Positions 9,000-23,787 of a stretch of 64,000 nt of DNA are shown in pieces (the first letter of the stretch is position 1; every line of letters begins with the position of its first letter). The DNA is taken from the NCBI RefSeq assembly GCF_028737255.1, contig NZ_JAQZAN010000001.1, forward strand, positions 434,001 to 498,000. The letters are read 5' to 3'. Source of the stretch: Actinomycetospora straminea. Its GTDB lineage: Bacteria; Actinomycetota; Actinomycetes; Mycobacteriales; Pseudonocardiaceae. The position numbers and the translations under genes were made by a program. The notes under the pieces are model-generated. The model saw only the letters and a list, made by a program, of their open reading frames with translations. It was not told the DNA's origin and did not search any database.

Positions 9000-9078
9000 A
9001 CCGGAGGTGCACGACCGGTCCGCCTGGTTACCGTCCTCCCGTCCGCCGGCACCCCGAGCCGCGGAGAGGAGACGGACC

Positions 9079-10245
9079 ATGGAGAAGATCAACGAGCGCC
9101 TGCTCAACTGGGCGTCGATCCTCGACGACGGCACGCTGGCCCAGGCCGAGCGCACGGCGGCCATGCCCTTCATCCACCCGCACGTCGCGCTGATGCCCGA
9201 CGCCCACCTGGGCCGGGGCGCCACGGTGGGCTCGGTGATCCCGACGCTGCGAGCGATCATGCCGGCGGCGGTGGGCGTCGACATCGGCTGCGGCATGGCC
9301 GCGGTGCGGACGCGGTTCGACGTGTCGGAGCTGCGGGCCCAGGGGTCGCTCGCGCAGCGGCGCGAGGCGATCGAGCGGGCGATCCCGCTCTCGGCCGGGC
9401 ACCACAACCGCAAGGTCGTGGCCACCGCCGAGCCGCGGATCGAGGAGCTCACGAAGCTCGCCGAGGAGGCCGGGTTCGACCCGGCGGGCGACAAGAAGGG
9501 CTGGGAGCTGCAGCTCGGCACGCTCGGCAGCGGCAACCACTTCATCGAGGTCACCGTCGACGAGGCCGACCGGGTGTGGCTGTTCCTGCACTCCGGCTCC
9601 CGGGGCGTCGGCAACAAGATCGCGCAGCGGCACACCGCCGTGGCCCGCGCGGCGTGCGCCGGCGTCGACCTGCCCGACCAGGACCTCGCCTACCTCACCG
9701 AGGACACCGACGAGTTCTGGACCTACATCCGCGAGCTGCGGTGGGCGCAGCACTACGCGCTGCTCAACCGCGAGGAGATGATGGACCGGGTGGTCCGGCA
9801 GACCGCGGAGTTCGTCGGCACCGAGGTGGTGGAGGAGGAGCGGATCTCCTGCCACCACAACTACACGGTGCAGGAGACCCACGCGGGCGAGGAGGTCTGG
9901 GTCTCGCGCAAGGGCGCCATCGACGCCGCGGCGGGCCGGGCCGGCCTCATCCCGGGGTCGATGGGCACGGCGTCGTACGTGGTCACCGGCAAGGGCGAGC
10001 CGCAGTCGCTGCACAGCTCGCCCCACGGGGCGGGCCGGGCGTACTCGCGGACGAAGGCCCGCAAGACCTTCACGCACGAGCAGCTGCGGGCGGCCATGGC
10101 GGGCATCGAGTTCCGGGACACCGAGGCGTTCCTGGACGAGATCCCGGCGGCCTACAAGGACGTCGACGTGGTCATGGCCGACGCCGCCGACCTCGTCGAG
10201 GTCCGGCACACGCTGCGCCAGATCGTCAACGTGAAGGGCACGTAG
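9079..10245 (+). CDS. rtcB: RtcB family RNA ligase
   Basis: 388-residue RtcB 3'-phosphate/5'-OH RNA ligase of the short bacterial group. Metal-binding residues are present in GVDIGCGM (Asp, Cys), GSGNHF, LHSGSRGVGN and SCHHNY; the guanylated His is expected in SSPHGAGRAYSR. The enzyme joins RNA 2',3'-cyclic phosphate or 3'-phosphate ends to 5'-OH ends using GTP and Mn. ATG 9079 follows GGAGAGGAGA; the frame is open back to 9007 but without Shine-Dalgarno support. No RtcA, RtcR or archease neighbour is seen. Its stop is 4 nt from the convergent ptsI stop. Confidence 0.9.
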   Translation: MEKINERLLNWASILDDGTLAQAERTAAMPFIHPHVALMPDAHLGRGATVGSVIPTLRAIMPAAVGVDIGCGMAAVRTRFDVSELRAQGSLAQRREAIERAIPLSAGHHNRKVVATAEPRIEELTKLAEEAGFDPAGDKKGWELQLGTLGSGNHFIEVTVDEADRVWLFLHSGSRGVGNKIAQRHTAVARAACAGVDLPDQDLAYLTEDTDEFWTYIRELRWAQHYALLNREEMMDRVVRQTAEFVGTEVVEEERISCHHNYTVQETHAGEEVWVSRKGAIDAAAGRAGLIPGSMGTASYVVTGKGEPQSLHSSPHGAGRAYSRTKARKTFTHEQLRAAMAGIEFRDTEAFLDEIPAAYKDVDVVMADAADLVEVRHTLRQIVNVKGT

Positions 10246-10249
10246 GCGG

Positions 10250-11947
10250 TCAGCCGGCTGCGGCGACCTCCCGCGCCGTCGCCCGGGCGCCCTCGGCGTC
10301 CGGCGCGGCGAGCGCGGCGCTCGCGGCCCGGCGGCAGGTGTCGAGGTCCAGCGCGGCGATCCGCGCGGCCACCGCCGGCAGCGCCGCCGGCGACGCCGAC
10401 AGCGAGGTCACCCCCAGCCCGACGAGGACGACGGCGAGGTCCGGGTCGGCCGCTGCCTCGCCGCACACGCCGACCGGCGTCGCGGTCACCGCGGCCTCCC
10501 GCCCGAGCTGGTCGAGCAGGCGCAGCAGGGCCGGCTGCCACGGGTCGTTGAGCCCGGCGAGCGCGCCGGACTGGCGGTCGGCGGCGAAGAGGTACTGCGT
10601 GAGGTCGTTGGTGCCGACCGAGACGAAGTCGACCTCGGCGAGCAGCTCGCGCGCCCCGAGCACCGCGGCCGGGACCTCGATCATCACGCCGACCTCGTCC
10701 GCCCCCGCGGCGCGCGCCCGCGTCACGAACCGGCGCGCCTCGGCGGCCGTCGCGATCATCGGGGCCATCACCTTGAGCCGCACCCCGGCCTCCGCGGCGC
10801 CCGCGACGAGGGCGGCGAGCTGGCGGTCGAGCACGCCGTCGCGATCGGCGACGCCCTGGTCGAACACCCGCTGGCCGCGCACCCCGAGCGCCGGGTTGGG
10901 CTCGGGCGCCATGGCGAGGAAGGGCACCGGCTTGTCGGCGCCGGCGTCGAGGGTCCGTGCGGTGACCGGCCGGCCGTGCAGCGGGGCCATGGTCGCGGCG
11001 TAGCCGGCGCGCTGGTCGTCGGGCGAGGGCTCGGTGGCCGCGGAGAGGAAGGTCAGCTCGGTGCGCAGCAGGCCGACGCCCTCGGCGCCGACCTCCGCGG
11101 CCCGCGCGGCGTCCTTGGCGTCGGCGATGTTGGCGACGACGGCGACGCGGTGGCCGTCGGCGGTGGTGACGGGACCGGTCACGACGGTGGGCCCGGCGGC
11201 GGCGAGGTCGACGCCCACCGCGGTGCCCGCCGCGACCGTCTCGACGGTCCCCGCGGCCCCGTCGACGCGGACGAGGGCGCCCTCGGCGAGCGACGCCGCG
11301 CCGCGGCAGCCGACGACCGCGGGCACCCCGAGCGAGCGGGCGAGGATCGCGGTGTGGCTGGTCGGCCCGCCCTCCTCGGTGACGAGGGCGAGGGCGGTGG
11401 CGGGCTCGAGGGTCGCCGTGTCGGCCGGCGCGAGGTCGCGGGCGACGAGCACCGACGGGCCGGACAGCGGCGGCACGCCCGGCGCCGGCACGCCGAGGAG
11501 CTCGGCCACGATCCGGTCGCGGACGTCGACGACGTCGCCGGCGCGCTCGGCCATGTAGCCGCCCGCGGCCTGCAGCGCCGCGACGAACCCGGCCGCCGCC
11601 TCGTAGACGGCGCGGGCGGGCGGCGTGCCGTGGTCGCGGACGTGGGCGCCGGCGGCGTCGAGCAGCGCCGGGTCCTCGGCCATCATCGACGTCGCGAACA
11701 GCACGTTCGCCACGTCGGGGTCCAGCCCCGGCTTGCTGCCCAGCGCCATGAGCCGGGCGCCGACCTCCGCCGCCGCCGGCGCGATCCGCGCGGCCTCCGC
11801 CTCGCGGCGCTCGGCCGGGATCGCCGGGCCCGCCGCCGGCTCCCCCAGCGGCTCGGGCACCCGGACGACCGGCCCCACCGCCGCCCCGCGGCTCGCGGGG
11901 GTCCCGCGCAGGACCGCCTCCTCCTGCTGCGTCTCGGTCGTGCTCAT
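10250..11947 (-). CDS. ptsI: Phosphoenolpyruvate-protein phosphotransferase (PTS enzyme I)
   Basis: 565 residues, typical for EI. The phospho-accepting histidine is His198 in EEGGPTSHTAILAR. The PEP-binding barrel shows TLDAGADKP, GVRG, GVMIEVP and a catalytic Cys in VGVCGEAA. It transfers phosphate from PEP to HPr in the cytosol. ATG 11947 has GAGGGGAG 6 nt upstream. It is transcribed away from the deoR-fru operon, from overlapping divergent promoters, so EI and the fructose permease are probably co-regulated. Confidence 0.95.
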   Translation of the reverse strand: MSTTETQQEEAVLRGTPASRGAAVGPVVRVPEPLGEPAAGPAIPAERREAEAARIAPAAAEVGARLMALGSKPGLDPDVANVLFATSMMAEDPALLDAAGAHVRDHGTPPARAVYEAAAGFVAALQAAGGYMAERAGDVVDVRDRIVAELLGVPAPGVPPLSGPSVLVARDLAPADTATLEPATALALVTEEGGPTSHTAILARSLGVPAVVGCRGAASLAEGALVRVDGAAGTVETVAAGTAVGVDLAAAGPTVVTGPVTTADGHRVAVVANIADAKDAARAAEVGAEGVGLLRTELTFLSAATEPSPDDQRAGYAATMAPLHGRPVTARTLDAGADKPVPFLAMAPEPNPALGVRGQRVFDQGVADRDGVLDRQLAALVAGAAEAGVRLKVMAPMIATAAEARRFVTRARAAGADEVGVMIEVPAAVLGARELLAEVDFVSVGTNDLTQYLFAADRQSGALAGLNDPWQPALLRLLDQLGREAAVTATPVGVCGEAAADPDLAVVLVGLGVTSLSASPAALPAVAARIAALDLDTCRRAASAALAAPDAEGARATAREVAAAG

Positions 11948-12000
11948 CGTGGGCTCCCCTCGTCGGGCTCGCGGGTGACGTCGGTGTGTCGCCGACGAGA

Positions 12001-12084: not shown

Positions 12085-12855
12085 ATGTACGCCGCCGAGC
12101 GTCACCAGATCCTGGTCCGCCGGGCCCAGGAGCTCGGTCGCCTCGAGGTGACCGCGATCGCCGCGGAGCTCGGGGTCACCACCGAGACGATCCGCCGCGA
12201 CCTGACCGCGCTCGAGCGCCAGGGGCTGCTGCACCGGGTGCACGGCGGGGCCATCGCCGCGGGCCGTCTCGAGGTCGAGCCCGGCGTCGCCCAGCGCGAC
12301 ACCACCGCGAGCGAGGAGAAGGACCGCATCGCCAAGGCCGCGGTCGCCGAGCTCGGCCCGGCGTCGACGATCCTGCTCGACGCGGGCACCACGACCGCGC
12401 GCATGGCCGCGCTGCTGCCCGACGACGTCGAGCTCACGGTCGTCACCAACGCGCTGCCGATCGCCACGCTCCTCGCGGGGCGGCACCGCATCACCGTCCA
12501 CATGATCGGCGGGCGGGTACGCGGCACCACGCTCTCCGCGGTCGACCGCTGGGCCCTGCAGACGCTGGAGAGCGTCAACGTCGACGTCGCGGTGCTCGGC
12601 ACCAACGGCTTCTCGGTGGACCGGGGGCTCACCACGCCCGACGTCGCCGAGGCCGCGGTCAAGGGCGCGATGGCCCGCGCCGGCGCCCGCACGATGGTCG
12701 TCGCGGACGCCGGCAAGTACGGCGCCGACTCGTTCTCGCGCTTCGCGACGCTCGACATGGTCGACACGCTCGTCACCGACGCCGGCCTGACCACCGCCCA
12801 CCCCGGGGCGGCCGACGCGCTGCGCGCCGCCGGGCCCGAGCTGGTGATCGCGTGA
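12085..12855 (+). CDS. DeoR/GlpR family regulator of fructose PTS (FruR-like)
   Basis: 256 residues with N-terminal DeoR helix-turn-helix (VTAIAAELGVTTETIRRDL) and the RxVHGGA signature, then a sugar-phosphate sensing domain with LDAGTTT and IGGRVR motifs. First gene of an operon with fruK and fructose PTS genes, so the effector is probably fructose 1-phosphate or fructose 1,6-bisphosphate. Strong GGAGGTGAT stands 5 nt before ATG 12085. The stop overlaps the fruK GTG (GTGA). Confidence 0.93.
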   Translation: MYAAERHQILVRRAQELGRLEVTAIAAELGVTTETIRRDLTALERQGLLHRVHGGAIAAGRLEVEPGVAQRDTTASEEKDRIAKAAVAELGPASTILLDAGTTTARMAALLPDDVELTVVTNALPIATLLAGRHRITVHMIGGRVRGTTLSAVDRWALQTLESVNVDVAVLGTNGFSVDRGLTTPDVAEAAVKGAMARAGARTMVVADAGKYGADSFSRFATLDMVDTLVTDAGLTTAHPGAADALRAAGPELVIA

Positions 12856-13829
12856 GCACCCGGGGGAGCGCGGGGCCGATGGTCGTCACGGTCACCCCCA
12901 ACCCGAGCCTCGACCGCACCGTCGAGGTCGCCGCCCTCGTCCGCGGCGCCGTCCTGCGCGCCGACGCCTCCCGGGTCGACCCCGGTGGCAAGGGCGTCAA
13001 CGTCTCGCGGGTCCTCGCCGCCTTCGGCCACCCGACGCTCGCGGTGATGCCCGGCGGCACCGGCGAGCTCGCGACGCTGCTGCGCGCGGCCGGCATCCAG
13101 CCGGTGAGCACGCCGGCGCGCGGCACCACCCGCGTCAACACCGCGCTCGTCGAGGCCGACGGGACGACCACCAAGATCAACGAGCCGGGTGTCGAGCTCC
13201 ACGCCCACGAGGTGGCTGCGCTCGTCGACACCGTCGCCGCCCACGCCGCGCCCGCGGCCTGGGTGGTCACCGCGGGCAGCGTGCCCCGCGGCGCCCCGGA
13301 CGACCTGCACGCCCGCATCGTCACCGCGGCCCGGCGCGGTGACGCCCGGGTCGCGGTCGACACCAGCGGCCCGGCGCTGGCCGCCGCCGTCGCCGCCGGC
13401 CCCGACCTCGTCAAGCCGAACGTCGCCGAGCTCGCGGAGCTCGTCGGCCACCCGCTGCCCCGCCTCGCCGACGTCCTCGCCGCCGCGGCGGACCTGCGCG
13501 GCGGCGGGATCGACACGGTGCTCGTCAGCCTCGGCGCGGCCGGTGCCGTCGTCGTGGCGCCCGAGGGCACCTGGCACACCGCGAGCGTGCCGGTGACCGC
13601 GGTGCGCAGCACCGTCGGCGCCGGCGACTCGACGCTGGCCGGCTACCTGCTCGCCCGCACATCCGGCGCGTCCCCGGCCGACGCGCTCGTGCACGCGGTG
13701 GCCTGCGGGGCCGCCGCCGTCGGACTGCCCGGGACCGCCGTCCCCGGCCCCGCCGACATCGACATCTCGTCCGTCAAGCCGGCGTCCGCGCCGGAGGAGT
13801 CCCTCGACCTCACCGGAGAGGCAGCATGA
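12852..13829 (+). CDS. fruK: 1-phosphofructokinase
   Basis: PfkB-family sugar kinase, 325 residues. The substrate signature DPGGKGVNVSRVL is at about 38-50 and the C-terminal anion hole/catalytic base motif is STVGAGDSTLAGYL. It phosphorylates fructose 1-phosphate made by the downstream PTS to fructose 1,6-bisphosphate. GTG 12852 overlaps the regulator stop; an internal ATG at 12879 (MVVTVTPNP) would match the usual family N-terminus and is an alternative. The 3' end overlaps the IIA gene by ATGA. Confidence 0.93.
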   Translation: MSTRGSAGPMVVTVTPNPSLDRTVEVAALVRGAVLRADASRVDPGGKGVNVSRVLAAFGHPTLAVMPGGTGELATLLRAAGIQPVSTPARGTTRVNTALVEADGTTTKINEPGVELHAHEVAALVDTVAAHAAPAAWVVTAGSVPRGAPDDLHARIVTAARRGDARVAVDTSGPALAAAVAAGPDLVKPNVAELAELVGHPLPRLADVLAAAADLRGGGIDTVLVSLGAAGAVVVAPEGTWHTASVPVTAVRSTVGAGDSTLAGYLLARTSGASPADALVHAVACGAAAVGLPGTAVPGPADIDISSVKPASAPEESLDLTGEAA

Positions 13830-14284
13830 CCACCAGCACCGCCCTCATCACCGCCGACCTCGTCGACCTCGACCTGCCCGCCGGCGACCGCGCCGCGGCC
13901 GTGCGCTCGCTGGCCGAGCGCCTCGTCGCCGCCGGCCGCGTCAGCGACCTCGAGCAGTTCCTCGCCGACGTCGAGGCGCGCGAGGCCCAGATGCCGACCG
14001 GGCTCGAGGGCGGGATCGGCATCCCGCACTGCCGCTCCGCCGCGGTCACCGTCCCGACCCTCGGCTTCGGCCGCAGCGCCGCCGGCGTCGACTTCGGCGC
14101 CGAGGACGGCCCGGCCGACCTCGTCTTCCTCATCGCCGCCCCCGCCGGCGGCGGTGACGAGCACATGACCGTGCTGGCCGCGCTGGCCCGCCGGCTCATG
14201 CGCAGCAGCTTCAAGGACACCCTGCGCCAGGCCACCGACGCCGCGCAGGCCGCCGACTTCATCGCGAAGGAGGTGTCGGCGTGA
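13826..14284 (+). CDS. PTS fructose-specific IIA component
   Basis: 152-residue stand-alone EIIA of the fructose/mannitol family. Phosphorylatable His68 lies in GGIGIPHCRS. It accepts phosphate from HPr and passes it to IIB. ATG 13826 is preceded by GGAGAGG and overlaps the fruK stop; its own stop overlaps the IIBC start (GTGA), giving tight coupling and fixed stoichiometry. Cytoplasmic. Confidence 0.93.
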   Translation: MTTSTALITADLVDLDLPAGDRAAAVRSLAERLVAAGRVSDLEQFLADVEAREAQMPTGLEGGIGIPHCRSAAVTVPTLGFGRSAAGVDFGAEDGPADLVFLIAAPAGGGDEHMTVLAALARRLMRSSFKDTLRQATDAAQAADFIAKEVSA

Positions 14285-15885
14285 AGATCGTCGCCGTCAC
14301 CGCGTGCCCGACGGGCATCGCCCACACGTACATGGCCGCCGAGGCCCTCGAGATCGCCGCGGAGGAGGCGGGACACACCCTCACCGTCGAGACCCAGGGC
14401 TCGGCCGGCTCGACCCCGCTGACGGCGGAACAGCTCGCCGAGGCCGACGCCGCGATCTTCGCCGCCGACGTCGAGGTCCGCGACAAGGAGCGTTTCGCGC
14501 ACCTGCCGCTGGTCCAGGTCGGGGTGAAGAAGGCCATCTCCGGCGCTCCCGGCCTGATCGCCCAGGCCGAGCAGGCCGCGGCCGAGGCCCCGGCCCGCAC
14601 CGCGGCACCGGCCACCGCCGGCGGCGGCAGCCCGGCCACGCCCGCCGGTGCCAAGGCCCCGGCCGGCCCCGGCGCCGCGTCGCGGGTCCGCGCCTGGCTG
14701 ATGACCGGCGTCAGCTTCGTCATCCCCTTCGTCGCGGCCGGCGGCCTGCTCATCGCCCTCGGCTTCGCGCTCGGCGGCTACCAGATCAACCTCCCCGAGG
14801 ACGAGCCGCTCTACGAGACGATCCTGTCCGGCGGCTTCGACGCCGGCTCCCTCACCGCCTGGGGCGCGCTCGCCTTCGGCATCGGGTCGGCGGCGTTCAA
14901 CTTCCTCGTCCCGGTGCTGTCCGGCTACATCGCCTACGCGATGGCCGACCGCCCGGCGCTCGTCCCCGGCTTCGTCGGCGGCGCGATCGCCGTGACGACG
15001 GGCGCGGGCTTCCTCGGGGGCCTGGTGTCCGGGTTCGTCGCGGGCGGGCTCGTCATGTGGATCAAGACCTGGCGGGTGCCACGGGCGCTCGCGGGCATCA
15101 TGCCCGTGGTCGTCATCCCGCTGATCTCGACCGCGGTGGTCGGCCTGCTGATGTACGTCGTGGTCGGGCGCCCGATCGCCGCGGCCACCGACGGCCTCAC
15201 GAACTGGCTCAACGGCCTCTCCGGCACCAACGCGGTGCTGCTGGGCCTGCTGCTCGGGCTGATGATGTGCTTCGACATGGGCGGCCCGGTCAACAAGGCG
15301 GCCTACACCTTCGCCGTCGCCGGCCTCACCACCGCGTCGCCGACCGCCCTGACGATCATGGCCGCGGTGATGGCCGCCGGGATGGTCCCGCCGCTCGCGA
15401 TGGCCCTGGCCACGGTCGTGCGCCGGTCGCTGTTCACCGACGTCGAGCGGGAGAACGGGCGGGCCGCGTGGCTGCTCGGTGCCTCGTTCATCTCCGAGGG
15501 CGCCATCCCGTTCGCCGCCGCCGACCCGTTCCGCGTCATCCCGGCGATCATGGCCGGCGGCGCGGTGACCGGCGCCCTGTCGATGGCCTTCGGCGCGACC
15601 CTGCGCGCCCCGCACGGCGGCGTCTTCGTGGTGCCGCTGATGGGCAACCCGCTCGGCTTCCTCGCCGCGGTCGTCATCGGGACCGTTGTGGCGACCGCGC
15701 TGGTCGTCGCCCTCAAGTCCTTCGCGCGGCGCCGTCCCGCCGGGTCCGGTGCCGAGCCGGCCGGCGACACGGCCGGCGGGACGGACGGCGGGACGGACGG
15801 CGGGACGGACGGCGAGACGGACGGCGGAGCCCCCGCGGAGCCCTCGCGCGCCGGTGCCGCCACCACGGCGGGAGCGTCCGCGTGA
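14281..15885 (+). CDS. fruA: PTS fructose-specific IIBC component
   Basis: 534 residues. IIB domain (1-100) with the phospho-Cys at position 9 in VTACPTGIAHT; an Ala/Pro/Gly linker (about 105-135); then a IIC membrane domain with about 9-10 helices and FDMGGPVNKAAY and FISEGAIPFAAADP motifs. It transports and phosphorylates fructose to fructose 1-phosphate. The C-terminal cytoplasmic tail contains GGTD repeats encoded by a 12-bp tandem repeat. In operon with fruK, IIA and HPr. Confidence 0.94.
   Translation: MKIVAVTACPTGIAHTYMAAEALEIAAEEAGHTLTVETQGSAGSTPLTAEQLAEADAAIFAADVEVRDKERFAHLPLVQVGVKKAISGAPGLIAQAEQAAAEAPARTAAPATAGGGSPATPAGAKAPAGPGAASRVRAWLMTGVSFVIPFVAAGGLLIALGFALGGYQINLPEDEPLYETILSGGFDAGSLTAWGALAFGIGSAAFNFLVPVLSGYIAYAMADRPALVPGFVGGAIAVTTGAGFLGGLVSGFVAGGLVMWIKTWRVPRALAGIMPVVVIPLISTAVVGLLMYVVVGRPIAAATDGLTNWLNGLSGTNAVLLGLLLGLMMCFDMGGPVNKAAYTFAVAGLTTASPTALTIMAAVMAAGMVPPLAMALATVVRRSLFTDVERENGRAAWLLGASFISEGAIPFAAADPFRVIPAIMAGGAVTGALSMAFGATLRAPHGGVFVVPLMGNPLGFLAAVVIGTVVATALVVALKSFARRRPAGSGAEPAGDTAGGTDGGTDGGTDGETDGGAPAEPSRAGAATTAGASA
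15775..15822 (+). repeat. 12-bp tandem repeat in the fruA 3' end
   Basis: Four head-to-tail copies of GGCGGGACGGAC, the fourth with one mismatch, encode Gly-Gly-Thr-Asp repeats in the cytoplasmic tail of IIBC. In-frame unit length allows copy-number change without frameshift. Confidence 0.85.
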
Positions 15886-15950: not shown

Positions 15951-16223
15951 ATGATCTCCCGACAGGTCGTCGTCGCCACCCCGATCGGACTGCACGCCCG
16001 CCCCGCCGCCGTGTTCTGCCGGGCCGCGGCGGCCCAACCCGCCACCGTCACCGTCGCGACCGCCGAGGGCAGCACCGCCGACGCGCGCAGCATGCTCTCG
16101 GTGCTCGGCCTCGGCGTCCGCGGCGGGCAGGAGGTCACGCTGAGCGCCGACCCCGGCCAGGACGGCGCGCAGAGCAGCGTCGACACCCTCGCCGACCTGC
16201 TCGCGACGGACCTCGACGCCTGA
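15951..16223 (+). CDS. ptsH: Phosphocarrier protein HPr
   Basis: 90 residues, standard HPr. His15 in TPIGLHARPA is the phosphorylation site, followed by Arg17; Ser47 in DARSML is the position of the regulatory serine of firmicute HPr. It carries phosphate from EI to IIA. ATG 15951 has AGGAG 6-7 nt upstream. The frame is also open to a GTG at 15882 overlapping the fruA stop, which would add a 23-residue Pro/Gln leader; that start is less likely. Confidence 0.93.
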   Translation: MISRQVVVATPIGLHARPAAVFCRAAAAQPATVTVATAEGSTADARSMLSVLGLGVRGGQEVTLSADPGQDGAQSSVDTLADLLATDLDA

Positions 16224-16242
16224 CCCCGCCCGGCCCGTACCG

Positions 16243-16291
16243 AGCGAAGGGCCCCTCCGGTCGATCTCGTCGACCGGAGGGGCCCTTCGCT
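16243..16291. terminator. 22-bp perfect hairpin after ptsH
   Basis: Perfect inverted repeat with 22-nt arms (16243-16264 and 16270-16291) and a 5-nt loop, 19 nt after the HPr stop. It is the end of the fructose PTS operon and separates it from the HPr-like gene. No T-run follows. Confidence 0.85.
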
Positions 16292-16348
16292 GGTTCCCGG
16301 TGCCGCCGACCTCGTCGAGCTCCGGGAGATCGTGGCCGGCACGGGACG

Positions 16349-16354
16349 TAGGTT
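16349..16354 (+). promoter_or_regulatory. -10 element of HPr-like gene (possible leaderless start)
   Basis: TAGGTT stands 6 nt before GTG 16361, with no Shine-Dalgarno between. This fits a leaderless transcript and means the HPr-like gene can be expressed independently of the fru operon, from which it is cut off by the hairpin at 16243-16291. Confidence 0.45.
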
Positions 16355-16360
16355 GGGGAC

Positions 16361-16663
16361 GTGATCGCGCGCCAGGTCGTCGTCGCCACGCCCCGCGGGC
16401 TCGGGGAGGAGGCCGCGGGGCGCTTCTGCACCACCGCCCGCGCGCAGCCGGCCCGGGTGCACGTCGTGGTCGACGACGGGCGCTCGGCCGACGCGCGCAG
16501 CGTGCTCGGGGTGGTCGAGCTGGGCATCGCGGCCGGGCAGGAGGTCACGCTGACCGCCGACGAGCACGAGGCCGGGGCGCAGGCCAGCGTCGACCTCCTC
16601 GCCGGCGAGCTGGCCCGCGACCTCGAGCCCGACGACGAGCCCGCCGGCGGCCAGGAGGCCTGA
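16361..16663 (+). CDS. HPr-like protein lacking the active-site histidine
   Basis: 100 residues, aligning without gaps to the HPr just upstream over the first 47 residues (MIxRQVVVATPxGL start, FC at 22-23, ARAQP, SADARS). The phospho-histidine is gone: positions 14-18 read LGEEA instead of LHARP, so His15 is Gly and Arg17 is Glu. Ser47 is kept in DARSVLGVVELG. It cannot act as a phosphocarrier. The pattern (no His15, serine kept) recalls Bacillus Crh, a regulatory HPr paralogue, but no HPr kinase is visible here. The acidic tail DLEPDDEPAGGQEA is extra. Transcribed separately. Function unknown; a regulatory or decoy role is inference. Confidence 0.85.
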   Translation: MIARQVVVATPRGLGEEAAGRFCTTARAQPARVHVVVDDGRSADARSVLGVVELGIAAGQEVTLTADEHEAGAQASVDLLAGELARDLEPDDEPAGGQEA

Positions 16664-16676
16664 GCGCCGGCACCGG

Positions 16677-19600
16677 TCACACCACCGCGGTCTCGCCCCA
16701 GATGTCCTCGAGGTAGCGCTCCGAGGACCGCAGGCCCGCGAGCCACGCCGCGCCGTCGGCCTCGCCCGCGCCGGTCTTCGCGCGGAACACCGCCACGAGG
16801 GCCGCACGCACCCCGGGCGCCATGGTCGAGGCGTTGCCGCAGACGTAGACCACGGCGTCGGCCTGCATGGCCGCCCACACCTCGTCGGCGGCGCCCTCGA
16901 GCGCGTGCTGGACGTAGCGGTAGGGGTAGCCGGGCACCCGCGAGTACGCCGGGAACAGCGTCGCCACGCCCGCCTTCTCGAACGCGGCGAGCTCGTCGGC
17001 GTAGAGCAGGTCGTCCTCGGGGTCGCGGCAGCCGAGGAACAGCAGCGAGCGCGCGATCGGCACGCCCTTCGCCCGCAGCGCCTCGCGCTCCTGGAGGAAC
17101 CCGCGGAACGGCGCCATGCCCGTCCCCGCCCCCACCATGATCATGGGCACGTGCGGGTTCGCCGGCGGGCGGAAGGCGATGCTGGGCGAGCGGACGAACG
17201 TGAACACCGTGCCGCCCTCGGGCACGTCGTCGAGGTGCCCGGAGCACACGCCGCGGTAGGTGCCGTCGCCCGAGCGCGCCGGGGCCTCGAGCACCCCGAC
17301 CGTCAGCGCCACGTCCGCCGACACCTGCGGTGACGACGAGATCGAGTAGAAGCGCGGGCGCAGCGGCGGCATCAGGTCGAGGAACGCGGCGAACCCGAGG
17401 TCGCACTCCGGGTGCTGCTCGAGCAGCTCGAGCAGCGTGCGCCGCGGCTTGGCGATCGTCTCCCGGTACCGCTCCTTGGCGGCGTCGTCGTCGCCGACCG
17501 TCGCCGCGAGCTCGTCGCGCGCCGGCCCCTCCGGCATCGCCGCCACCATCGCCGCCAGCCCCGCGCGGCTGGCCACGTCCTGCAGCTCGACGCAGCCGGC
17601 GAGGATCGCGAGCAGCGGGTAGGGCTCGCCGACGGGCAGGTGGGTGGGCGCGCTGCCGTTGGCCGTCAGCGTCGCGAACTGGCCGCCGTCGAGCCCGAAG
17701 CGCCGGATGACGCGGTTGACCAGCCCCATCGGGTTGCGGGGCAGGACGCCCAGGTGGTCGCCGGTGCCGTAGGAGATGCCGGCGGGCATCGCGATCTCGA
17801 GGTGGCGCACCGACCGCCCGCCACCGCCACCGCCGCGGGCGGTGAGCTCGCGGTTGACGCGCACCGTCGCCGCCTGGCCGCGGTACGACTGCAGCACCGG
17901 GCTCGCGGTGCGGCGCTGCTCGAGCGACACCGCCAGCCGCGGTCCGCTCGCGGCGGTCGCCGTGGTCGTCGCGTCGAGCCCGAGCGCGGCGCCCAGGTCG
18001 TCCCACAGCCCGCGGTACCAGTCGTCGAACTGCCCGTCGAAGTCGCCGCGCGCGTCGCCCTCGCCGCGCGGGTGCACGCGGGTGCCGCCCTTGGCCTCCA
18101 GTCCGGCGTCGACGCGGGTCGGCACGGCCTGGTACGTCGCGGCCCAGTCGCGGTTGCCGCAGCCGAAGACGGTGAAGCGCACGCCCGCCGCCGACGCCGC
18201 GTCGGAGTCGAGCCAGGTGCAGAACCGGGCGGCGTTGTCCGGCGGCTCCCCGTTGTAGGACGAGGTCACGACGACGACGGCGCCCTCGGTCGGCAGCTCG
18301 CCGACGGCCTCGTCGAGCGCGGCGGTGCGGGCGGTGTACCCGCGATCTCCGGCGTCGCGGGCGATGCGGGTGGCGAGGTCCTCGGCCGCCCCGAGGTTGG
18401 AGCCGAACAGCACGAGCAGCGGGGTGCCGTGCCGGTCGGCCGGGGTGACGGGCAGGCTCGCGGGCCGGGGCTCCGCGGCGGCCACGGCCGCCGGCCGCGC
18501 CGCCGACCCCCACGTGCGGCCCTCGCGGGGCCGCACGGTGATCGTGAGCCCCTCGGGCTTGATCGTCAGCGACTCCTTGATCCGCAGCTGGTAGTCCGCG
18601 TGGTCGACGAGCTCGAAGCGCTGCAGCACCATCCCGAGCACCAGGACGGCCTCCTGCAGCGCGAACTGCCGCCCGATGCAGGCCCGCTGCCCGGAGCCGA
18701 ACGGCCGGTAGGCGTTCGGGGGCAGCGCGTCGAGGCGCTCCGGGGCGACGTGGTCGGGGTTGAACTCGCGGGCGTCGGGACCCCACACCTCGGTCAGGCG
18801 GTGCAGCATCGGGGTCAGCGCGACGATCCCCGTTCCCGGGTCGAACGGACCGTACCCACCGACCGTCTCCCCCGGGCTGCGGGCCTGGCGGGTGAACGCG
18901 GGCGCGGTGGGCCAGAGCCGCAGCGTCTCGTCGAGGATCTGCCGGACGTAGCCGAGCTGCCCGATCTGCGCCACGGTCGGCGCGACGCCCGGGTCGGTGC
19001 CGAGCACGCGGTCGACCTCCTCCTGGGCGCGCGCGACCACCTCGGGGTGCTTGAGCAGGTAGTACACGGCGAACGACAGGAGCCCGCTCGTCGTCTCGTG
19101 TCCGGCGATGAGGAAGGTGCCGCACTGCGCGACGATGTTGTGGTCGGGCAGCGTGTTCCCCTGCTTGTCGGTGCCGACGAGCATGTGCCCGAGCAGGTCG
19201 GTGCCCGGGTCGCCCGACGCGCGCCGCTCCTTGACGATCTTGTCGATCGTGTCGTCCATGAACTTCGCGTTCGCGAGGAAGCGCTGCTGCGCGCCCCGGC
19301 GGAGCTTGATCTGGACCGGCAGCATCTGCTGGCGCTTGAGGCTCTCCGAGAGCGACTCCATCATCGCCTCGACGAAGGGGTGCTGGGTGTCGCGGTAGAA
19401 GGAGTTGAAGCGGTACCCGAAGCCGCACAGCGCGATGGTGTCGAGCGTCAGCCGGGTCATGTCCCCCGCGACGTCGATCGGCTCGTCGGGGTTGAGCCGC
19501 TCCCACTTGAGCATCAGCTGCTGGGCGATGTCGACCATCGGGTCGACGTAGCCCTTCATCGCCCACGTGGAGAAGCTCGGCAGCAGGATGTCGTGCGCGG

Positions 19601-19925
19601 ACTTCCACAGCGGGTCGGCGGTGTCGGCGGTGAACAGCCCGGCGCTCGTGTGGGTCTTGCGGATCTCACGCTGACCGGTGCCGACGAGCTTGTCGAAGCG
19701 GCTGTCGTCGCAGAGGTCCTGGACCATCTCCAGCCCGGAGACGACGTAGGTCGTCCCGGCCGGGGTGTGCAGCTGGAGGATCGGGCCGTACTCGTCGGCC
19801 AGCTCCATGATGCTCTGGACCAGCCGGTGGGTGTCGATGTCGCGGGCGTTGCCGATGATCGGCAGCGGCTTCGGTCCCGGGATGTCGGCGAGCGACCGAC
19901 CGGGGGCCTCAGGGGTGGTGGTCAT
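16677..19925 (-). CDS. Self-sufficient cytochrome P450-reductase fusion (CYP102 / P450 BM3 type)
   Basis: 1082 residues in three parts. Heme domain (1 to about 460): I-helix FLIAGHETTSGLLSFA, K-helix ETLR, heme loop FGSGQRACIGRQFAL, all very like P450 BM3, including the Phe of GLFT that lies over the heme. FMN flavodoxin domain (about 480-640): FGSNLGAAEDLA, TSSYNGEPPDNA. FAD/NADPH domain (about 670-1082): RFYSISSS, GAGTGMAPFRGFLQER, YVCGNASTMAPGV. BM3-type enzymes hydroxylate fatty acids with NADPH, without separate redox partners. ATG 19925 has GAGGAG 7 nt upstream and overlaps the stop of the upstream membrane protein (ATGA). Cytosolic. Confidence 0.95.
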   Translation of the reverse strand: MTTTPEAPGRSLADIPGPKPLPIIGNARDIDTHRLVQSIMELADEYGPILQLHTPAGTTYVVSGLEMVQDLCDDSRFDKLVGTGQREIRKTHTSAGLFTADTADPLWKSAHDILLPSFSTWAMKGYVDPMVDIAQQLMLKWERLNPDEPIDVAGDMTRLTLDTIALCGFGYRFNSFYRDTQHPFVEAMMESLSESLKRQQMLPVQIKLRRGAQQRFLANAKFMDDTIDKIVKERRASGDPGTDLLGHMLVGTDKQGNTLPDHNIVAQCGTFLIAGHETTSGLLSFAVYYLLKHPEVVARAQEEVDRVLGTDPGVAPTVAQIGQLGYVRQILDETLRLWPTAPAFTRQARSPGETVGGYGPFDPGTGIVALTPMLHRLTEVWGPDAREFNPDHVAPERLDALPPNAYRPFGSGQRACIGRQFALQEAVLVLGMVLQRFELVDHADYQLRIKESLTIKPEGLTITVRPREGRTWGSAARPAAVAAAEPRPASLPVTPADRHGTPLLVLFGSNLGAAEDLATRIARDAGDRGYTARTAALDEAVGELPTEGAVVVVTSSYNGEPPDNAARFCTWLDSDAASAAGVRFTVFGCGNRDWAATYQAVPTRVDAGLEAKGGTRVHPRGEGDARGDFDGQFDDWYRGLWDDLGAALGLDATTTATAASGPRLAVSLEQRRTASPVLQSYRGQAATVRVNRELTARGGGGGGRSVRHLEIAMPAGISYGTGDHLGVLPRNPMGLVNRVIRRFGLDGGQFATLTANGSAPTHLPVGEPYPLLAILAGCVELQDVASRAGLAAMVAAMPEGPARDELAATVGDDDAAKERYRETIAKPRRTLLELLEQHPECDLGFAAFLDLMPPLRPRFYSISSSPQVSADVALTVGVLEAPARSGDGTYRGVCSGHLDDVPEGGTVFTFVRSPSIAFRPPANPHVPMIMVGAGTGMAPFRGFLQEREALRAKGVPIARSLLFLGCRDPEDDLLYADELAAFEKAGVATLFPAYSRVPGYPYRYVQHALEGAADEVWAAMQADAVVYVCGNASTMAPGVRAALVAVFRAKTGAGEADGAAWLAGLRSSERYLEDIWGETAVV

Positions 19926-20907: not shown

Positions 20908-20947
20908 GTGAGCAGAAAGAAGTGCTGGAGCACTTCTTTCTGCTCAC
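20908..20947. terminator. 40-nt perfect palindrome at the 3' end of the LuxR gene
   Basis: 18-nt arms (20908-20925 and 20930-20947) are perfectly complementary around a TGGA loop. The ends are GTGAGC/GCTCAC as at 421-460 and 38172-38210. The TGA stop of the LuxR gene (20944-20946) is part of the right arm. Likely the terminator of that gene, keeping it separate from the CYP102 operon downstream. Confidence 0.75.
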
Positions 20948-23736
20948 GTGCGGCGGAGCCGCACCAGCTCCCGGCGGGAGGTGACGCCGAGCTTCGCGTA
21001 GACGTTGGACAGGTGGTAGGCGACCGTGCGCGGGGTGATGTAGAGGTCGCGCCCGATCTCGCGGTTGGTCAGGCCCCGGGCGACGAGCGCGACGACGGCC
21101 TCCTCGTGCGGCGTGAGGCCCAGCGAGTCGTCGCCGCCCGACGGCGTGAGCCCGGCGGCGTGCAGGAGCTCCTCGCACCGCGCCCGCCACGGCGCCGCGC
21201 CGAGCCGGGCGAGGGTGTCGCGGGCGCCGCGCAGGACGTCGACGCCGGCCCGGCGCTCGCCGGCGGCCAGCAGGCGGCGACCGATCTCGGTCTCCAGCCG
21301 GGCGAGCGCGTGCGGGGCGACGATCCCGTCGAGGCCGGCCTCGGCCACCGAGCGCGGGACCGGCTCGCCGGGTACGAGGACCAGCCGCAGGCGGGCGACG
21401 TCGACGCGGTAGCGCCCGGCGGTGTCCCCGGCCCGCTCCTCCAGCGCCGCCAGCGCCGCGGCCGCCTCGTCGGCGCGGCCCAGCGCGTGCAGCGCCTCGG
21501 TCTCGAGGACCCGCGGCGCGAGCAGGCCCAGACCGTCGGCGAGCGCCCGGACCGCGGGGTCGCGGGCGGGCGCCAGCGCCTCGAGGACCGCGGCGGGGTC
21601 GTCGGCGACCTCGGCGAGCCGGGCGGCGGCGATCGCGCCGTACAGGTCGCGGCCCCACCACCGCGGGCCCGACGCCGCCGCGGCCGCCAGGTGCGCGCGG
21701 GCCTCGTCGGCGCGGCCCCGCAGCGCCAGGGCCTCGGCGGCGAAGGCGTGGGCGAGCGCGCCGGGCAGCGCGGTGCCGCCGTCGCGGGCCAGGGTGACGG
21801 CCAGCTCGAACCCCTCGACGACGCCGTCCGGCACCCCGACGCGGTCCAGCACGGCGGGCCGGAACGCCAGCGCGATCGCGAGCCCCCGCACGGGTTCGCC
21901 GGCCCGGGCCCGGCGGACCGCCTCGTCGAGGTCGGCGGCCGCCGCGGCGTCGTCGCCGGCGAGCGTCGCGAGCACGCCGCGGACCAGCAGCGCGTCCACC
22001 CGGGGCGGGCCGCCGTCGGGGTCCGAGGCGCGGTCGAGCACGGCGCGCGCGTCGGCCCCGCGGCCCGCGACGGCGAGCCCGACGACCAGCGCGAAGCCGG
22101 CGGGCAGGCGCACGTCGTCGCCGCGGGCGTGGTGGGCGAGCGCGCCGGCCGCGGTCGCCACCGCGCGCTCGGGGTCGCCCTGCAGCAGCTGGAGCACCGC
22201 GAGGTGGGCGGCCGCGCCCGCCCGCGCCCGGTCGCCGGGGCGCTCCTCCCCCGGGTCGCCCGGCTCGGTCGCGGCCGCCGCGGCGAACCACTCCCGCGCG
22301 ACCCCGAACCGGCCGGTGAACAGCGCCAGCTGCCCCAGCACCGCCGCGCGCCACGGTCCGGGCCCGCAGCCGGTCACCGCCTCCTCGAGCGCCACCGCCC
22401 GCGCGATCTCGCCGTCGGCGACGAGCCGGGAGGTCGCCGCCAGCAGGCGGCGCTCGCGGTCGACGGGCTCGGTGCTCAGGTCGGCGGCGGCGCGCAGGAG
22501 GTCCGCGGCGTCGGCGCCGGCGAGGGCCGCGCCGGGCGTGGCGACCAGCTCCTCGATCTCCGCGGCCAGCGCCGGGTCCGGGCCGGCGGCCGCCGCGACG
22601 CGGTGCGCGAGCGCGGCGCGTCCCGTCAGCCGGCGCGCCGCCGCGGCGTGCACGGCCCGGCGCCGCGCCGGCGGCAGGTCACCGCGCACGGCCGCGCGCA
22701 CGAGGGGGTGCACGAAGCCGATCCGCGCCGGCGGCCCGCCGGGCAGCTCCTCGAGCAGCCCCAGCCCGACGGCCTCGTCGAGCGCGTCCGACGGGTCGTC
22801 GAGGTCCGCGACGGCGGCGGCGAGGGCGAGCGGGGCGCTCTCGCCGAGCACGGCCGTCGCGACCACCAGGGACGCGGTCGCCGGCGCGGCGCGGGCGAGG
22901 CGCACGAGCAGCACCGAGGGCAGGCTGCGCGGAGCCGGGAGCACGTCGGCGGTGCCCGCGAGCACCTCGGGCGGCAGCTCCTCGATCAGCGTGCGCGCGT
23001 GCAGGGGGTGGCCGCGCGTGTGCCGCCACAGCCGGTCGGCGGCGCCGATCGAGCCCAGCGGCCGGTCCAGCGCGGCGGCCAGCTCCGAGAGCTCGCCGGG
23101 GTCGAGGCCCTCGAGCCGCACCCGGTGCACCGACTCCCCCGTCGCGGGCAGCCGCTCCCACCACGCGTCGGTCGGCGCGGGGTCGTCGACGTCCCCGGGC
23201 CCGCCCGCGGGGTGGCGCAGGCCCGCGAGCACCAGGACCCGGTCGTGGCGCAGCCGCCGCAGCGCGAACACCAGCGCCCGCACCGAGGCCGGGTCGGCCC
23301 ACTGCAGGTCGTCGAGCACGACGAGCACCGGGTCCTCGCCCGGGACCGCGCCCAGCGCCCCGAGGAGGTCCGCGCCGACGGCCAGCGGGTCGGCCCGCGG
23401 CGCGCGGTCGCCGCGCAGCAGCGGGAAGCGGTCGACGAGCTCCGGGGGCAGGCCCGCGACCACCTGGTCGAGCAGCCCGTGCGCGAGCCCGCTCTCCCCC
23501 GCGTCGCCCGTGGCGGTGAGGACGGCGGCCGCCCGACGCCCCGCCGTCGCGCGCGCGAGGAACGCCGTCTTGCCCGCGCCCGCCTCGCCCTCGACCCAGA
23601 CGATGCCCGGGCGCCCCGCCCGCGCGGCCTCGTACGCCGCGTCGACGACGGCGAGCGCGTCCCGGCGACCGACGAAGACCGGGCCGACGGCGACGCGCCG
23701 TGGCCACGCGGGCCACGGACGCGTCGTCATGGTCAT
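20944..23736 (-). CDS. Large LuxR-family ATPase transcriptional regulator (LAL type)
   Basis: 930 residues. N-terminal AAA/STAND ATPase with Walker A EGEAGAGKTAF (about residue 42) and Walker B VLVVLDDLQWADP; a long Ala-rich helical, TPR-like middle; and a C-terminal LuxR helix-turn-helix LTPHEEAVVALVARGLTNRE...VSNVYAKLGV. Such LAL/MalT-like proteins are ATP- and inducer-dependent activators, often of nearby genes. It is upstream of and co-directional with the CYP102 operon but separated by a perfect terminator. ATG 23736 or 23730 (MTMTT) is possible; neither has a strong ribosome-binding site. Confidence 0.9.
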   Translation of the reverse strand: MTMTTRPWPAWPRRVAVGPVFVGRRDALAVVDAAYEAARAGRPGIVWVEGEAGAGKTAFLARATAGRRAAAVLTATGDAGESGLAHGLLDQVVAGLPPELVDRFPLLRGDRAPRADPLAVGADLLGALGAVPGEDPVLVVLDDLQWADPASVRALVFALRRLRHDRVLVLAGLRHPAGGPGDVDDPAPTDAWWERLPATGESVHRVRLEGLDPGELSELAAALDRPLGSIGAADRLWRHTRGHPLHARTLIEELPPEVLAGTADVLPAPRSLPSVLLVRLARAAPATASLVVATAVLGESAPLALAAAVADLDDPSDALDEAVGLGLLEELPGGPPARIGFVHPLVRAAVRGDLPPARRRAVHAAAARRLTGRAALAHRVAAAAGPDPALAAEIEELVATPGAALAGADAADLLRAAADLSTEPVDRERRLLAATSRLVADGEIARAVALEEAVTGCGPGPWRAAVLGQLALFTGRFGVAREWFAAAAATEPGDPGEERPGDRARAGAAAHLAVLQLLQGDPERAVATAAGALAHHARGDDVRLPAGFALVVGLAVAGRGADARAVLDRASDPDGGPPRVDALLVRGVLATLAGDDAAAAADLDEAVRRARAGEPVRGLAIALAFRPAVLDRVGVPDGVVEGFELAVTLARDGGTALPGALAHAFAAEALALRGRADEARAHLAAAAASGPRWWGRDLYGAIAAARLAEVADDPAAVLEALAPARDPAVRALADGLGLLAPRVLETEALHALGRADEAAAALAALEERAGDTAGRYRVDVARLRLVLVPGEPVPRSVAEAGLDGIVAPHALARLETEIGRRLLAAGERRAGVDVLRGARDTLARLGAAPWRARCEELLHAAGLTPSGGDDSLGLTPHEEAVVALVARGLTNREIGRDLYITPRTVAYHLSNVYAKLGVTSRRELVRLRRT

Positions 23737-23787
23737 GACGACAGCGCAGGTCAGGCCCCCTGTCCAGGGCCACTTCCGAGGGAGATC

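Follow-up and report, generated by a model that had tools for sequence, protein, structure and literature searches.

The window, that is, the whole stretch of 64,000 nucleotides of Actinomycetospora straminea DNA analysed here, contains a complete fructose (fru) PTS operon ending with a normal HPr gene, and behind it a second gene of the HPr family, designated PAR. The features of this locus are as follows.

9007..10245, + strand: rtcB (start approximate)
10250..11950, - strand: stand-alone PTS enzyme I (EI; start approximate)
12085..12855, + strand: DeoR-family regulator of the fru operon (role by position)
12852..13829, + strand: PfkB-type sugar kinase, from its position and sequence presumably 1-phosphofructokinase (start approximate)
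13826..14284, + strand: PTS enzyme IIA (Pfam PTS_EIIA_2)
14281..15885, + strand: fructose-type PTS enzyme IIBC (Pfam PTS_IIB and PTS_EIIC)
15951..16223, + strand: normal HPr with GLHARPA active site, last gene of the fru operon (Pfam and alignment)
16243..16291, + strand: 22-bp hairpin with 5-nt loop, 3' hairpin of HPr, probable terminator without T-run
16305..16351, + strand: likely decayed copy of the rtcB 3' end, up to a TAG stop, then 9 nt to the GTG of PAR (sequence alignment)
16361..16663, + strand: PAR, GTG start, 100 aa, with Gly15 Glu16 Glu17 Ala18
16677..19916, - strand: cytochrome P450-reductase fusion, convergent with PAR, 13 nt between the stop codons

The EI of the window matched all three EI domains. 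The IIBC gene carries short repeats (GGGACGGACGGC units) near its 3' end (about 15777-15826), which encode a Gly-Thr-Asp-rich tail, and the tblastn matches of IIBC to relatives ended before this tail. The P450 fusion consists of a P450 and flavodoxin/FAD/NAD reductase domains, a layout which we take to be P450-BM3-like, and it adjoins a large LuxR-type ATPase regulator (20944-23760). Fusion and regulator are both missing from the HPr-GuaB1 gap of six outgroup relatives and from between PAR and GuaB1 in G015, one of the other genomes with PAR (see below); because of its absence from this place in G015, the P450 fusion is not part of the PAR unit.

An HPr-family protein without the active-site histidine

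In the alignment the GTG start of PAR coincides with the start of HPr. The protein matched the Pfam PTS-HPr family (PF00381) with 48.8 bits (cut-off 23, E 7.6e-13), and was 57% identical to the adjacent HPr in an alignment that ran without gaps over 90 residues. In contrast, its score with the NCBIfam HPr family TIGR01003 (41 bits) was under the cut-off of 47.9. Compared with the adjacent HPr, all four residues from position 15 to 18 are replaced (His15 by Gly, Ala16 by Glu, Arg17 by Glu and Pro18 by Ala), and so are Ile12 (by Arg), Ala20 (by Gly) and Val21 (by Arg). The serine at residue 47 is retained; we equate it with Ser46 in the numbering of E. coli HPr, the HPr of Actinomycetospora being one residue longer. 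The sequence-only reading, which had described an HPr paralogue beside a normal HPr, aligned without gaps, with His15 changed to Gly, Arg17 changed to Glu and the Ser46 equivalent kept, was thus correct in all these points.

PAR was present in three of 18 Actinomycetospora genomes: the window's genome (G000) and two metagenome-assembled genomes (MAGs), G012 and G015, which are 84% and 83% complete. The orthologues of G012 and G015 are 73% and 70% identical to the PAR of the window, and all three ORFs are intact. A search of 390 genomes of the family, in which 12 first-look candidates were scored per genome, gave 179.7-186.5 bits for these three and detected no further PAR; the next match, with 107.6 bits, was an ordinary HPr of Actinomycetospora. 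Gly15 and Glu17 occur in all three orthologues, so the phosphorylatable His15 is gone together with Arg17. Residues 4-22 (including PRGLGEEAAGRF) are identical in the three proteins, and Ser47 with its surroundings (SADARS) is likewise invariant.

Each of the 11 fru HPrs of Actinomycetospora retained the active-site histidine. As a wider control for residue 15, 95 family genomes were searched with PF00381, and 35 of these were searched again, yielding 85 matches; the 39 weakest of them comprised 38 with His and one fragment at a contig end. Among the papers listed by literature searches on His-less HPr and on PTS or HPr kinase in actinobacteria, no title or opening of an abstract mentioned a His-less actinobacterial HPr.

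AlphaFold2, run on a six-row alignment, predicted an HPr fold for PAR (mean pLDDT 89.8) in which the elements follow one another much as in HPr. The model matched E. coli HPr (1poh) with an rmsd of 1.3 A and a TM score of 0.90 by target length (Foldseek). Judged from its sequence, PAR is an HPr-fold protein incapable of His15 phosphotransfer, and a relay through this position is excluded. The PARs of G012 and G015 contain no His and no Cys at all, which also excludes phosphorylation at another His or Cys for these two proteins; the PAR of G000 has two His elsewhere and one Cys.

Fourteen positions distinguish the three PARs from the 11 fru HPrs by fixed differences (12, 15, 16, 17, 18, 20, 21, 24, 27, 37, 41, 52, 86 and 89), and seven of these fall within residues 11-22, a region that was chosen after looking at the data. 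It is with this face that HPr contacts EI and the EIIAs. Within PAR, only 1 of 21 positions varied in residues 2-22 versus 25 of 68 in residues 23-90 (p 0.005, regions again chosen after looking); the HPrs of four species differed in the same direction (3 of 21 versus 20 of 68), which was not significant (p 0.25). The net charge of residues 11-28 is +1 in PAR and +1 to +2 in HPr, thus the face is re-arranged rather than inverted. We infer that this surface, which has lost His15, Arg17 and Lys/Arg24 and has gained Arg12, Glu16, Glu17, Arg21 and Arg27, no longer fits EI or EIIA.

The locus in relatives and the missing fru PTS block

The genomes G004, G007 and G008 have the order rtcB, EI, DeoR, PfkB, IIA, IIBC, HPr, P450 fusion, LuxR-type regulator and GuaB-like gene. 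This is the same locus without PAR, which shows that PAR is dispensable. G002, G005, G006, G009, G014 and G017 have the same PTS block immediately ahead of the GuaB-like genes. G012 and G015 lack the EI-DeoR-PfkB-IIA-IIBC-HPr block at this locus, and their PAR follows the rtcB stop codon at a distance of 9 nt; the junction is identical in the two genomes and lies inside contigs in both. The rtcB of G012 is split into two frames (L019 10512-10521), possibly by a MAG assembly error; that of G015 reads through.

IIBC was not found anywhere in these two incomplete MAGs, nor was a stand-alone EI or a normal fru HPr; the absence of IIA, DeoR and PfkB refers to the locus only. Since the fru PTS was not found in two of the carriers, an action of PAR on this system is unlikely, and a working link to the fru operon is doubtful. 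The finding also bears on the idea that PAR is a decoy, which would bind EI, IIA-Fru or FruR without passing on phosphate and would lower the flux through the fru PTS. PAR does adjoin the fru operon in the window's genome. However, it is still under selection (see below) in the two carriers that lack the block at the locus and in which neither fru EI nor IIBC nor fru HPr was detected, and the residues around its active centre are replaced, thus we regard a decoy as very unlikely.

In G012 and G015 EI was matched only by a protein of the dihydroxyacetone-kinase fusion type; its identity to the fusion of the window's genome was 77% and 79%, and that to the fru EI about 42%. In G000 (C20:9653-9895; L031 5427-9618) Dak1 and Dak2 genes lie beside this fused EIIA-Man/HPr/EI phosphotransfer protein. 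The fusion is the only PTS-like chain seen in the carriers lacking the fru PTS, and PAR could be its partner, a reading to which the occurrence of the fusion type in all three carriers lends some support. Yet the fusion, recognized as a long open frame that contains an HPr match, was present in 12 genomes, including G004, G007 and G008, which have no PAR. Moreover, it has an HPr domain of its own with the histidine, which was present in each of the eight fusion-type domains read out of 12. It is hardly probable that PAR serves this chain.

In G011, a genome 59% complete, an HPr with intact GLHARPA stands before the GuaB-like genes with no PTS gene upstream (L030 1564-2378). Upstream of it a glyoxalase-like and a GuaA-like frame were recognized by eye. 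IIBC was not found in this incomplete genome, and its sole EI match was on another contig beside an HPr domain of the fusion type. This arrangement seems to reflect another PTS deletion that left HPr behind, or else an assembly join; HPr-sparing deletions of the PTS thus seem to occur in Actinomycetospora. In G001, G003, G010, G013 and G016 (96-98% complete) neither fru IIBC, fru HPr nor PAR was found, which indicates that loss of the PTS does not require PAR.

Probable origin of PAR and selection within its clade

The 22-bp hairpin has its core in the window only at 16245-16289. Similar hairpins were recognized by eye 3' of HPr in G004, G005, G006, G007, G008 and G017, none of which carries PAR. 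It is thus a hairpin conserved at the 3' end of the HPr (fru) message, and probably a terminator without a T-run; a scan of 16180-16700 for terminators with the required T-run gave no match. The hairpin that had been thought to isolate PAR does exist, but it belongs to HPr. In G017 (L022) and G006 (L027) a second hairpin-like stretch of similar sequence, also seen by eye, follows the HPr hairpin.

Behind the hairpin, positions 16305-16351 (47 nt) look like the end of rtcB from which 12 nt have been deleted at one place, and they terminate with the same TAG followed by the same 9 nt spacing to the GTG as in G012 and G015. In a scoring scheme that tolerates one long gap (the 12-nt deletion), and with rtcB itself left out, this was the best place in the window for the PAR-upstream sequences of G012 and G015 (24.9-25.2); the next unrelated places scored 18.4 and 18.0, and none of 22,316 control 70-mers reached the remnant score. 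With the rtcB tail of G000 itself the score was 21.9 and two of 22,316 controls were as good. In a scheme with dearer long gaps the G015 tail scored 17, and several unrelated places were as good or better. On this alignment evidence 16305-16351 is likely a decayed copy of an rtcB 3' end, the likely source being the 3' end of the window's rtcB, and in the ancestor shared by the three carriers PAR probably already followed rtcB immediately. From the remnant we conclude that PAR probably descends from an HPr that remained next to rtcB when the PTS genes between them were deleted. No sigma-70-like promoter site was found in 16180-16700, and the own promoter claimed earlier for PAR was not supported, the sequence preceding the gene being the rtcB-like remnant. 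The remnant and the lack of promoter matches also weaken the view that PAR arose as a tandem HPr copy with its own promoter.

In the protein tree the PARs form one clade (100/99) on a long stem within the group of the G000, G004, G007 and G008 HPrs (100/99). GuaB1 and GuaB2 point to a species order of (G008,(G000,G007)) and (G004,(G012,G015)); the rtcB, LuxR and concatenated trees, with misaligned rows for G004 and G008, were set aside. G000 and G007 were united with a support of 100/100 by GuaB2 and 82/72 by GuaB1; G004 joined G012/G015 with 88/95 in GuaB1, and its place was left open by GuaB2, a tree that lacks G015. Given this order, vertical descent of PAR needs losses in G004, G007 and G008. 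PAR may go back to a duplication in the common ancestor followed by these three losses, or a PAR allele may have spread by recombination. Its position beside a complete fru operon in G000 may reflect a tandem duplication that lost its inner part, or recombination between a chromosome that has the PTS and one that lacks it. We also considered and rejected that G000 received PAR from a G012-like donor along with the flanking P450 region: identity along the P450 gene shows no mosaic, but a crossover may have taken place in the near-identical stretch at the end of this gene. The four-fold site divergence of PAR between G000 and G012 or G015 was 0.36 (n 50) and 0.31 (n 49); these values lie within the range of the flanking genes (0.22-0.38), thus they do not date an import.

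Selection was assessed with a purpose-written codon model on a fixed tree (10 sequences, 89 codons) under F1x4, F3x4 and equal codon frequencies. Under F1x4 omega was 0.14 for HPr, 0.98 for the PAR stem and 0.24 within PAR. Within PAR, omega = 1 was rejected under all three models (p 1.2e-6 with F1x4, 8e-12 with F3x4 and 4e-4 with equal frequencies). The difference between PAR and HPr omega was weak (p 0.12, 0.03 and 0.22 in the same order), PAR being faster under F3x4. The stem gave omega values of 0.98 (F1x4), 0.10 (F3x4) and 2.3 (equal). Equality of stem and HPr was rejected with F1x4 (p 0.001) and equal frequencies (p 1e-5) and not with F3x4 (p 0.50), where branch lengths were saturated; a stem omega of 1 was rejected under no frequency model (F3x4 p 0.51, equal p 0.14). 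Taken separately and under two frequency models, the deeper PAR branches (those to G000 and to the G012/G015 ancestor) rejected omega = 1 with p 1e-4 and 1e-8, and the G012 and G015 tips with p 0.003 and 1.4e-4. The two tip sequences differ in 7 synonymous and 6 non-synonymous codons (pairwise p 0.0004-0.017). Pairwise NG86 dN/dS, a method that ignores the strong GC bias, was 0.37, 0.55 and 0.24 for PAR and 0.26 to 0.45 for HPr of G000 versus G007, G008 and G004.

These values indicate purifying selection within the PAR clade, which comprises three sequences. The test set beforehand had asked whether homologues are confined to this strain with dN/dS near 1; with two orthologues and omega = 1 rejected, the answer was negative, and a strain-confined pseudogene is ruled out. 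If the shared junction of G012 and G015 reflects a shared loss of the PTS, the tips postdate this loss, and PAR has been kept without the fru PTS.

A related reading is that PAR is a functionless leftover of the PTS deletion which decays slowly and was brought beside the HPr of the window by recombination. It would account for the patchy distribution (PAR in three of the six genomes with the rtcB-linked arrangement), the stem omega near 1 under F1x4, the faster amino acid change than in HPr under F3x4, and the non-synonymous nature of 6 of the 13 codon differences between G012 and G015. But neutral evolution was rejected in the clade under all three frequency models and separately, under two, for the deeper branches and the tips, and three ORFs have stayed intact with residues 4-22 invariant. 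A relic of this kind we consider unlikely.

Comparison with Crh and the possible role of PAR

Few phosphocarriers have been studied as well as HPr, and Crh is the textbook example of an HPr-fold protein with a regulatory role and no part in phosphate transfer. PAR shares with the HPr (PtsH) of the fru operon and of other Actinomycetospora the fold, the start and the Ser46 equivalent in a gap-free alignment, and it differs from them in the lack of His15, Arg17 and Pro18 and in falling below the NCBIfam cut-off. With the Crh of Bacillus and its relatives it has in common the HPr fold, which for PAR is predicted, the replaced His15, the retained Ser46 and the absence of a His-phosphocarrier role. 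According to an excerpt of PMC9631020, Crh has no His15, retains Ser46 and exerts its effect via CcpA and MgsA, with HPr kinase in control; the Crh of P. thermoglucosidasius has Gln at position 15 (same excerpt). In contrast, all three PARs have Gly15, and the flanking residues are replaced as well. Among solved sequences PAR scored 32.7 bits with E. coli HPr and 25 with Crh, and its grouping with the HPrs of its own genus (100/99) comes from a tree without a Crh row; both observations weigh against a shared descent. Crh is apparently only an analogue of separate origin, and PAR is not filed as a Crh member; a further difference is that PAR is kept where its parent PTS and HPr kinase were not found.

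The search for an HPr kinase, proposed by the sequence-only reading, was run. TIGR00679 had no match in any of the 18 Actinomycetospora genomes, with an imperfect control (three of the 14 named genomes gave a match, but B. subtilis did not), and PF07475 had no match in the window's genome and none in the B. subtilis control. The B. subtilis control genome is known to carry an HPr kinase, and the absence by PF07475 and TIGR00679 is thus weaker than it looks. In the portion of a published survey that was available, HPr kinase is reported absent from Actinobacteria (PMC2405797). Control of PAR through HPr kinase is unlikely.

These results divide the comparison with Crh made by the sequence-only reading: the missing His15 relay and the purifying selection agree with it, whereas the kinase was not found by searches whose B. 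subtilis control also lacked a match, and the same serine occurs in every one of the 11 fru HPrs. As a full counterpart of Crh, PAR would keep the HPr face for a transcription factor or enzyme and be controlled by phosphorylation of the Ser46 equivalent. The invariant Ser47 and SADARS, the predicted fold with 1zvv (the CcpA-Crh-DNA complex) among the Foldseek matches of the model (E 1.3e-6), and the analogy with a Crh that lacks His15 (PMC9631020, excerpt) would fit such a regulator. Against it stand the negative kinase searches in the genus (18 genomes, B. subtilis control without match) and in the survey (PMC2405797, in part), the equal conservation of the serine in ordinary fru HPrs of Actinomycetospora, and the nesting of PAR among the HPrs of its genus, which taken together make it quite improbable.

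We favour, with about even confidence, the reading that in PAR an HPr has been rebuilt into a binding protein which keeps the HPr fold, is deaf to phosphate and works outside the fru PTS. As between the readings that remain, a binding protein with a re-made surface is preferred to a relic under weak constraint, and is given about one half. A deletion of the genes from EI to the fru genes between rtcB and HPr would have left HPr behind rtcB. Freed from phosphotransfer, the active-centre loop and the first helix could then have changed quickly, and the changed surface, no longer fitting EI and EIIA, would have become the contact site for a different partner. The gene would later have come beside the complete fru operon of G000 by duplication or recombination. 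On this reading PAR would regulate a partner in the cytoplasm, or serve it as an adaptor, by stoichiometric binding and in isolation from the PTS. The left-behind HPr of G011, which kept its histidine (genome 59% complete), runs counter to this reading.

Other HPrs offer partial parallels. In Bartonella and Ureaplasma, ptsH occurs without ptsI according to the accessible part of PMC2405797, an HPr kept, like PAR, where enzyme I is missing; PAR for its part has lost the histidine and has a re-made active-centre surface. Judging by the entry titles, E. coli HPr is seen on the non-PTS proteins Rsd (PDB 4xwj) and glycogen phosphorylase (PDB 9s8k), where the fold serves as a protein-binding regulator, as proposed for PAR. 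In its general form, the tentative proposal, which we find plausible without leaning to it, is that a phosphocarrier orphaned by loss of its PTS may turn into a PTS-independent regulator through loss of the histidine, rebuilding of the face, purifying selection and arrival beside a working HPr; this would be a second, separate origin of such a protein besides Crh, with neither HPr kinase nor parent PTS. The E. coli HPr that binds Rsd and glycogen phosphorylase also carries phosphate, unlike PAR.

The histidine was lost as in Crh, in a lineage where HPr kinase was not found, and PAR seems to outlast its parent PTS. With ordinary HPr, an HPr that has the histidine and no PTS (G011), and PAR with and without the PTS in one genus, Actinomycetospora offers a natural experiment on the way from a relay domain to a binding domain. 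For genome annotation, an HPr-family match need not mean a working PTS.
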